Below, piece by piece: positions 43,891-46,369 of a DNA stretch of 64,000 nt. The stretch's first letter is position 1. The number at the start of each line of letters is the position of its first letter. Source of the stretch: Deroplatys truncata (taxonomy: Eukaryota; Arthropoda; Insecta; Mantodea; Mantidae); assembly GCA_030765065.1 (NCBI GenBank), contig CM060975.1, positions 108,706,094-108,770,093 of the forward strand, read 5' to 3'. Under the pieces are notes generated by a model, which saw nothing but the letters and a program-made list of their open reading frames with translations, had not been told where the DNA came from and searched no databases. The position numbers and the translations under genes are program-made.

Positions 43891-45640
43891 ATCGCGTGAG
43901 TCTTCTCATTCTGCGATAATATGCCATTTGTACAAACATTATCTGGTCTTCGCAAATGAATGTGAATTTTTTGTGTGCTGCTGGAGAACATTGACAGAAT
44001 TGTTTTGGTAGTTGGAGCTACATTATTAAACGTCTATAATCGATGGCAGTGCAGGATGGACTGCTCATGTATTTAGGCTGTCAAGGCCCCCAAGTCTTGC
44101 ACCAATGACAATTCCGCTTTAAGAATATATGCAATCACCCCTTTGTGAGTTTCCAGTAAATGGAAGGAGAGTGTTCGTAGCGAGGATCGTGGTAGTGGTT
44201 CATTTATCAGACAGCAGTCAGATACGTTAATATATCAATCCCTAGTGTAAGATGCGCTGAGATGTACAATAATGTCACTAGAAGGCATTTAAAATGTTGT
44301 AATATGTAACAACTTAAAATAAAAAACAATTCATATCTTTTCCGTTCTTTAGTACCACAGCGGGGAATCTCTGGCAGTTGGAGATTATGCGTATGATGTT
44401 CATTGGCACCACACGAAAAATCTGCATTAATTTCACGAACACTCTGTATATGCATGTACACTTTGGTGTGCTTCCCTTACGTCTTGCACTTCCAGGGGCA
44501 GATACTGATACAGTACCTATGTATAGGCTCAAAAGATCTAATGGCTGTCGATGGTAGTACTCTAAAACAGGACTTTTATTAAGTTCTATTGGAATGATTA
44601 TCAAAAGAAATTGGAAAAACAAACTTCGAGGAATGAAAATAATTCAACTAATTCCATTTGGAGTTATAGGCTCAAAGGCATAAGGTGAATATTCTTTCTC
44701 TGTAACGGAGCACTAACATAATCCGGAATATTGCCCCGATTACTTCAACATTTGAAATGCGGAGGACCTCTATTTACTCTGGAACTTAGTCAAACATTTT
44801 AACGCCATTTTCTCAGACTAAAATTCAACTAAATGCTTGACTGAATATGTGATATCTCCACAAACTCATTCAGCACACGCAATATGGAGAATTGTACCAA
44901 TATCTTCAGCACAACAGACATTCGAAGCGACCAATATGACCCACCCGCATTGTAGCATCGAATATGGTATCTCTACGCATTATGCAGGCGTTGCTTCAAA
45001 ATGTGTACCTCAAGAACCGTCTCAACCTAAGCCATACTGTGGAATCTACGATTCAGTCTATCGTGCTGGCCGTGGTACAAGTCGCCTTCAACCCGTCTTT
45101 CTTCTAGTATAGAAAGAGGTCTGCACGGAGCTGCATTGTGCAGGAACCACGTGCACTGCCCTATGGCGAGCTGCACATCCTTGGATAATACAGGCAAAGC
45201 ATTATTCAAAAACCAAAAAACCCTCCTCCATTAAGTCGCTGCCGAAGAATGTGGTTTGCCGATATGGGGGTGTCGGATAATTTCGGCTATGCTTACAGTT
45301 AAATTGTTATCTTTCTTTGTAGAGAAAGTTGATGTCATCTATCGTGCACACACAGCAATCTGACGTCAAACAGTGTTGCTGGCTAACGTGAAAAACCAAG
45401 ATTTTTCATTCATTATATTAACAGGAACCTTTCCTTCTCTTTCTTTCTGGCCAGCTATTGAAATTTGTCTCTGTAACTTAATAACACGCCCTAGTTATGA
45501 AACATGCGAAAGCTATAAGTAGGTATAACAAAAAGCGACCGAATCAATGAATATACGTTGTTGTAACGCAGCGCTTTGACCCAAGATTATCGGGATGTCG
45601 GCACCAGGCATTCGGAGACAAATATAAGTCGCGCTCTCGC
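43891..45640. other. unassigned sequence
   Basis: No gene or repeat recognised. Antisense frame pairs at 44207-44622 and 44837-45209 have no family resemblance. Confidence 0.4.
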
Positions 45641-45677
45641 AGGCGCAAACACTAGAAGCGCTCTCGGCGGATAACCA

Positions 45678-45770
45678 GAATCTTCTGGAAGTTTCCTTCT
45701 CCCCGCCTGCAGAATGTGTGTCCAGATAGTTCCTGAATGTTCTGTGAAAGATTCCATTGGCTATATAAGC
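45678..45770 (+). promoter_or_regulatory. heat-shock promoter: two HSE arrays plus TATA box
   Basis: HSE 1 at 45678-45695 reads GAATCTTCTGGAAGTTTC: four alternating GAA/TTC units with exact 2-bp gaps. HSE 2 at 45730-45747 reads TTCCTGAATGTTCTGTGA: three perfect units and one imperfect. The heat-shock factor trimer binds three or more such units. A TATA box CTATATAAGC lies at 45761-45770, about 15 bp after HSE 2. An inverted CCAAT (ATTGG, 45756-45760) touches it. GCTCTCG motifs at about 45630-45665 resemble the GAGA sites common at insect hsp promoters. HSE number, spacing and position relative to TATA are those of a strong inducible insect hsp promoter. No hsp coding sequence is found downstream in the window. 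Confidence 0.82.
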
Positions 45771-45792
45771 GAGCGTTCTCGCAAAAGGAGTC

Positions 45793-46016
45793 AGCCAGTG
45801 AGTCAGCCAATGAATAAGTTGGTGAGCATATTTCTGCTGATGCATCAAGTGCGATTACTGTGACATGCAGCGAGTACGTGTCGAGTAGGAGATTGTTAGA
45901 AGTCCTGTGTTTGACTCCCCAGCGATTGGACCGTTCGGAAGAAGAGGCTACGTCAGGAAGAAAGTGAAGTGGCGGTGAAATTGAACTAGTTCACATTAGT
46001 GAAGTGACACTATGAA
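45793..46016 (+). ncRNA. putative first exon of a heat-shock-inducible transcript
   Basis: An initiator-like GTCAGCC places +1 at about A45793, 29-30 bp after the TATA box. The first ATG (45810) opens a 17-codon frame (MNKLVSIFLLMHQVRLL) that stops at 45861-45863. The leader is rich in AAGTGAAG-like purine motifs in its second half, as in many hsp 5' leaders. A strong splice-donor match, GAA followed by GTAAGTGAAG, occurs at 46016/46017. Three readings fit: a non-coding leader exon of a gene whose coding exons lie beyond the window (hsp90-type genes have a 5'-UTR intron); an hsr-omega-like non-coding stress RNA with a tiny ORF; or an orphan or duplicated promoter. No RNA evidence is available. 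Confidence 0.45.
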
Positions 46017-46369
46017 GTAAGTGAAGTCCCAGAGAAAGTAAACCAGGCCAAAAAAGTGACATTGTGAAGATTGCCACAATGCAGTTTTCCCCCGAAATAA
46101 ATAATTATTCTTCATAAGATGTGTTTCGGTCTGAACAGATACTTCTAGGACTCTAGTCATTGTCTTGTTTTTGTTATAATCTTCTCACGTTCTCTCCAAA
46201 TACCACAATTATCCATCCCTATATTATTGTGATTAAGCATTTACTTTCGTTGCTTGACATTTTGGTAAAAATATTAAATGTCTATATAATTAAATCCTTT
46301 TAGAGAAATTGTCTATAGCTACTGAAGAAAACAAAAGGAACCACCCACTATCTCAACATTATTGAGATC

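Follow-up and report, generated by a model that had tools for sequence, protein, structure and literature searches.

The hsp-type promoter at 45678-45796 of the window (the whole stretch of DNA analysed, 64 kb, C1:108706094-108770093 of a genome of 4.29 Gb in 818 contigs) lies within a dispersed repeat. Segment 45562-46078 was found to be a copy of a repeat unit of about 550 bp, which had been missed in the sequence-only reading of this DNA, where the promoter was taken for a strong heat-shock promoter with no heat-shock gene attached. The segment is best explained, at a probability of roughly 0.7, as the decayed copy of an ancient mobile element with ends of the LTR/integrase type and a 4-bp target duplication, likely of solo-LTR origin and with a promoter likely driven by heat-shock factor (HSF).

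Promoter motifs of the window copy

The following features were assigned to the unit and its immediate 3' flank.

45562..46078, plus strand: whole mobile unit TGTAAC...GCCACA, 517 bp; repeat boundaries from 61 copies
45562..45567, plus strand: 5' terminus TGTAAC (family TGTGAC), from end mapping
45678..45695, plus strand: HSF array 1, four perfect units; also present in the majority sequence of the 61 copies
45730..45742, plus strand: HSF array 2, three perfect units, with an imperfect fourth at 45745-45747; family form TTCTAGAATGTTC
45756..45760, plus strand: inverted CCAAT box (ATTGG), abutting the TATA box on its 5' side; family majority CCATTGGCTATATAAG
45762..45768, plus strand: TATA box TATATAA, motif read from the window sequence
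45791..45796, plus strand: initiator TCAGCC (family majority TCAGT), predicted +1 at A 45793, from motif position
45793..46078, plus strand: predicted transcribed part of the unit (R-U5-like), without a plus-strand ORF of 85 aa or more and without AATAAA
46073..46078, plus strand: 3' terminus GCCACA (family GTCACA), inverse of the 5' end, by eye
46096..46101, plus strand: AATAAA in the flank, outside the unit, 18 bp beyond its end

Array 1 (GAATCTTCTGGAAGTTTC) consists of four perfect alternating GAA/TTC units and is the only perfect four-unit HSF match in the 64-kb window; a match of this kind was obtained in one of 100 dinucleotide shuffles. Array 2 (TTCCTGAATGTTC) has three perfect units, and its fourth unit is imperfect because it reads TGA. 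Perfect three-unit HSF sites numbered six in the 64-kb window against about one expected; half of these, an overlapping pair included, belong to this promoter. The predicted +1 lies 31 bases past the first T of TATATAA. The order HSE, CCAAT box, TATA box, initiator is the layout of hsp promoters, and the arrays, TATATAA and initiator were found at hsp-promoter spacing. The sequence-only reading had reported two HSF arrays, the first with four perfect units and the second with three perfect units and one imperfect, followed by a TATA box at 45761-45770 and an initiator near 45793, in the order and spacing of an hsp promoter, and had considered a chance origin very unlikely. All of this was confirmed, the initiator as a motif, and chance is not a good explanation for the motif set at 45678-45796.

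The profile match for the window copy spans 45561-46072. Its 3' end lay below the end-mapping threshold, and the final six bases (GCCACA) were assigned by eye against the family end. About 28 bp appear, by eye, to have been deleted near the 3' end in comparison with the family, and the 4-bp flanks of this copy (TTGT and ATGC, by eye) mismatch.

Copy number and age of the repeat family

When 45600-46120 was searched against the genome, 40 of 5,376 first-look candidates were scored: the segment itself, plus 39 further places that were 74-79% identical to it. With the copies L015 and L030 as queries, 40 places each were scored of 8,734 and 9,763 candidates, and the other places were 76-83% and 79-84% identical, respectively; none of these candidate totals is a copy count. 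The three queries combined gave at least 98 distinct places, including the window's own, on 16 contigs, with main matches 74-84% identical. Matches to the window-segment and L030 queries also included three short secondary pieces of about 50 bp (84-91% identity). The smallest distance between any of the 98 places is 126 kb. Most copies examined are the same single unit of 490-570 bp. A profile search of 259 kb, in which the window copy and 20 seed copies are contained, brought one further place, at L012 2956-3178 on the minus strand with two small pieces alongside, and extrapolation from this single case would suggest a copy number of the order of ten thousand.

The sequence-only reading had asked whether the segment was single copy, and had counted its recurrence at many sites, if unaccompanied by a response to stress, as a refutation. 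The segment proved to be repeated, at no fewer than 98 places; of that pair, only the first half, recurrence at many sites, was observed. Because the 61 copies diverge on average by 12.1% from the column majority and the closest pair is 86.5% identical (median pairwise identity 79%), the family is read as an old burst with no young copies among those seen. In L062 and at G000:C13:19799226-19799279 a copy of the unit is followed by a partial second piece of the 3' region in the same orientation, perhaps a tandem remnant.

Conservation of the promoter across copies

At least one perfect three-unit array was present in 49 of the 61 copies, a perfect four-unit array in 22, two arrays in 17, a TATA box in 40 and an array together with a TATA box in 30; these shares are biased upwards because the 61 copies are among the best-scoring. 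As a control, the upstream flanks were taken as 357 stretches of 240 bp, of which six held a three-unit site. The majority sequence of the family core promoter is CCATTGGCTATATAAG...AGTCAGT. TCAKT was found 24-42 nt downstream of a TATA-like box in 32 of the 45 copies having such a box, and the TCAGT of the family majority presumably represents the arthropod initiator. AATAAA or ATTAAA in the transcribed half was absent from the column majority and present in 11/61 copies.

HSE letters were kept at a frequency of 0.931 compared to 0.888 for other non-CpG columns (p = 0.0017 against random columns, 0.062 against contiguous blocks). Array 2 alone was kept at 0.948 (block p 0.005), and the values for array 1 (0.917, block p 0.26) and the TATA box (0.925, block p 0.21) were not significant. 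HSE retention is nearly that of unselected decay from a master element bearing these sites. Selection on the HSEs of single copies is weak at best, with an overall block p of 0.062 and an excess that is mostly due to array 2. The copies decay almost evenly, and any present-day function of the unit is putative. CpG columns were kept at 0.796 in the 61 copies compared to 0.888 elsewhere, almost twice the mismatch rate, as expected if the copies were methylated.

Ends, target duplication and insertion

By eye, the family unit starts with TGTGACGCAGCGGC and finishes with AAAGTCACA, and its ends, TGTGAC...GTCACA, form a terminal inverted repeat of 6 bp. For end mapping, 70% identity was needed at both ends; 52 of the 61 copies passed and nine, including the window copy, were dropped. 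In the 52 copies the 4-bp flanks matched at 0.615 per base compared to 0.522 +- 0.025 in 2,000 shuffles (p = 0.001), and duplication lengths of 2, 3, 5, 6, 7 and 8 bp were without significant excess (lowest p 0.11). Exact 4-bp duplications were seen in 13 of the 52 (ATAT eight times, ATAC three times, GTAT twice). The 3' ends of some of the 52 are mis-mapped (L033 and L059, by eye), and L033 gives, by eye, a further duplication, TTAT/TTAT. Earlier, with cruder ends read off the alignment for 31 of 41 copies, the 4-bp matching had shown a trend only (0.629 vs 0.592 +- 0.027). The target is a small palindrome, RTAY, centred on TA, with the outer R in 24 and the outer Y in 28 of 31 copies and weak bias at the positions beyond. 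TA flanks most unit ends, and shuffles cannot reveal the duplication of a fixed sequence.

When the two flanks of each of the 61 copies were joined, six pairs (L019, L021, L032, L047, L056 and L059) matched older repeats that have no interruption, in alignments spanning the junction; the match obtained for the window copy is a trivial self-match. For L056 the empty site has one ATAT and the filled site two. Since these six joined pairs match empty sites, with ATAT single in that of L056, the unit is an insertion. Flanks vary from copy to copy, and no family-wide neighbour sequence was found when 59 left and 61 right flanks were compared over 300 bp at most (some flanks had no more than 32-100 bp, 32 and 39 bp being the minimum). 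Five weak pairs were detected, two of which adjoin the unit (L019/L056 and L021/L056) because these copies were inserted in the same older repeat. L019 and L056 sit, by eye, in one older repeat family, seemingly at the same ATAT site, in line with the target preference.

A Tc1/mariner-type MITE with a TA target was set aside as less likely, since a 2-bp duplication would not produce 4-bp matching and 4 bp was the sole enriched length. A Helitron was rejected, the unit having inverted ends and a target duplication; Helitrons are rolling-circle elements and are not known to have either.

Search for a heat-shock gene, and neighbouring features

A Pfam HSP70 search of the whole genome gave 59 matches, none of them on the window's contig C1. 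For one hsp70 protein of this genome, 7,991 candidates were scored; among the 120 matches listed, the top-scoring ones of ordinary length belong to Periplaneta and Anabrus (84-85%), and Bemisia and Homalodisca follow closely in score at 86-88% identity, which points to an insect, perhaps a polyneopteran. Thirty ORFs of the window, including every listed stop-to-stop ORF of at least 100 aa from 45.8 to 64 kb, were submitted to Pfam, and at E <= 0.01 only mariner-type transposase pieces were found. Rfam and tRNA scans of the 64-kb window were empty. The earlier statement that hsp coding sequence is absent downstream was upheld by these searches. An orphan hsp gene was rejected, as these searches (Pfam on the window ORFs, HSP70 on C1) gave no such coding sequence and the segment is repeated. 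That no hsp gene follows would be explained by the promoter belonging to a mobile element. A remote coding exon beyond a long intron, one of the possibilities raised earlier, is made unnecessary by the occurrence of the unit at 98 or more places with flanks that vary between copies. The stress-induced non-coding RNA that was also proposed there may be made from this one copy.

Several other repeats were noted in the window. A very abundant dispersed repeat of about 840 bp, mostly at 72-77% identity, occupies 46596-47431, 0.5 kb 3' of the promoter unit, and several copies of it occur within some 10-kb loci. In three of 21 copies (the window, L023 and L024) this repeat lies about 0.43-0.52 kb downstream of the unit in the same orientation; the adjacency is probably due to chance, since the copies have no intervening sequence in common and the repeat itself is abundant. 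At 62199-62898 a 231-bp unit occurs three times in tandem (97% alike) and resembles, by eye, the beginning of the 46596-47431 repeat. Two overlapping frames at 49772-50881 on the minus strand contain what is left of a mariner transposase; the closest named matches of the larger piece were mariners of the spider Trichonephila. AGT/GTA triplet arrays are present at 39971-40984 and 41589-41869, and the GC skew is 0.56 in the 2-kb bin 40001-42000.

Nature and origin of the unit

A unit of about 550 bp that stands alone, with the TATA box in mid-unit, the initiator downstream and the HSEs in U3, fits a solo LTR. The family ends TGTGAC...GTCACA agree with the TGTNR...YNACA pattern of Gypsy-type solo LTRs, and the 4-bp duplication (p = 0.001; a trend in the cruder test) agrees with the fixed 4-6 bp of such LTRs. 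The canonical poly(A) signal of an R region is lacking in the column majority. Full-length relatives with two LTRs and a coding interior were not seen among the 98 places of thousands of candidates, and no primer-binding site was recognised by eye in the right flanks of the copies. Because an internal region, a paired copy and a poly(A) signal were not found, the unit has not been filed as an LTR; a genome so large would be expected to retain at least some copies of full length. TGTNR ends and a 4-bp duplication are described, in the part of PMC2836005 drawn on here, for both Gypsy LTRs and Ginger transposons, which have a related integrase. A small, MITE-like, non-autonomous DNA transposon with integrase-type ends, dependent on a Ginger2-like or other DDE transposase and with a promoter derived from a lost autonomous parent, is a possible, though the less probable, origin. 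It would account for copies that are one single unit, mostly 490-570 bp, without a family-wide neighbour, for the lack of any pair under 126 kb among the 98 places and for the poly(A) signal missing from the majority. Ginger2 itself, as far as that part of the source describes it, comes near to the unit in its TGTNR ends, 4-bp duplications and AT-rich palindromic target. However, its terminal inverted repeats measure about 50-180 bp compared to 6 bp in the unit, its target is RTATAY and that of the unit RTAY centred on TA, and Ginger2 has a transposase, whereas none was found linked to the unit. An LTR origin holds a modest lead over a small non-autonomous DNA transposon.

The sequence-only reading had also offered a promoter captured by a mobile element. 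The mobile element proved right in kind, but capture from an hsp gene was unsupported in a comparison with hsp70. For this the window unit was aligned with 1,081 bp of upstream sequence from each of five hsp70 genes in this genome, one of which contains an internal stop. No alignment exceeded 23 bp, and the best, of 21 bp, was inverted (E 0.002), whereas mutual alignments were obtained for four of the five regions. A perfect three-unit HSE occurs once in each of three of the five regions and in none of the other two. The hsp70 promoters, which stand ahead of an intronless stress gene, resemble the unit in combining an HSE with a TATA box. That a mobile element took its promoter from a host heat-shock gene would be in keeping with the hsp-like order of HSE, CCAAT box, TATA box and initiator and with a core, TTCTGGAA(C/G)TTTC, that the family has in common with two of the five hsp70 regions; capture from hsp70 is nevertheless unsupported because the five regions share at most 23 bp with the unit, and capture from any host heat-shock gene is considered improbable on a comparison that covered hsp70. 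Less probable still is an orphan heat-shock promoter specific to this locus and kept by selection, giving a stress-induced lncRNA or serving a remote coding exon. Among the 61 copies, divergence from the column majority is highest in the window copy, at 17.6%, yet this copy retains all 21 HSE letters and the TATA box; by our own arithmetic about 2% of copies so far diverged would hold the 21 letters by chance. However, this copy had been chosen for its intactness from thousands of candidates, and its full set of 21 letters partly reflects that selection by the earlier reader. Dispersal over at least 98 places also speaks against such a promoter, as do the tested downstream ORFs, which are mariner-type pieces only, and the lack of HSP70 on contig C1.

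Relation to known systems and significance

As a mobile element of likely solo-LTR origin, the unit would operate like a heat-activated LTR. Host HSF would, judging from the motifs, bind the two HSE arrays, and under heat or other protein-damaging stress transcription would begin at about 45793, directed by the TATA box and initiator. HSF-driven transcription would be the way in which the element gained transcripts and then copies, and after insertion the promoter would point into whichever DNA lies 3'. The window copy is predicted to make at most a short non-coding RNA, because the downstream DNA is repeat-rich and an AATAAA lies 18 bp past the unit; this signal, if used, would terminate a read-through transcript at about 0.3 kb.

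A known system of this kind is ONSEN (COPIA78) of Arabidopsis, in which, according to the part of PMC3907296 drawn on here, nTTCnnGAAn sites in the LTR promoter allow the host heat-shock factor to bring about transcription under heat stress. Like ONSEN, the unit is LTR-like in build with HSF sites in its own promoter, and these are common to its copies (perfect three-unit array in 49/61). ONSEN differs, in the same account, in that it is a Copia element of a plant, has an active form of full length and has had its binding by HSFA2 tested. The unit represents an animal family with Gypsy-like ends, has seven perfect units in the window copy and is known from sequence alone; in contrast to ONSEN, no full-length form was seen among the 98 places. 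Helitrons of Caenorhabditis carry HSE clusters and have spread HSF sites in large numbers, an enrichment that, of the Helitron-annotated genomes examined, was seen in Caenorhabditis only, as stated in the sections of PMC6927752 used here. They are likewise animal mobile elements dispersing HSF sites, but the unit has TG...CA ends and a 4-bp duplication, and its HSEs are joined by a TATA box and an initiator. Among the titles and abstract openings listed in searches of open-access papers, none described a mobile element of insects that has an entire promoter of the hsp type. Mobile elements with HSF sites are thus known from ONSEN and the Caenorhabditis Helitrons, and, since those titles and abstract openings showed none, a dispersed insect family with a whole hsp-type promoter appears to be new.

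For annotators the finding is a warning that a textbook heat-shock promoter may be a repeat. An animal family with a whole hsp-type promoter, beyond HSF sites alone, would allow one to ask directly whether transposition spreads heat-inducible promoters and whether the host puts them to use. It is a rather doubtful but attractive proposition that this extinct family scattered thousands of ready-made HSF promoters, some surviving copies of which now drive heat-induced transcription of host DNA; if true, one mobile element wrote a genome-wide heat-shock programme in a 4.3-Gb insect genome. The element likely used the heat alarm of its host for its own switching-on, and in doing so may have scattered heat-responsive switches across the genome.
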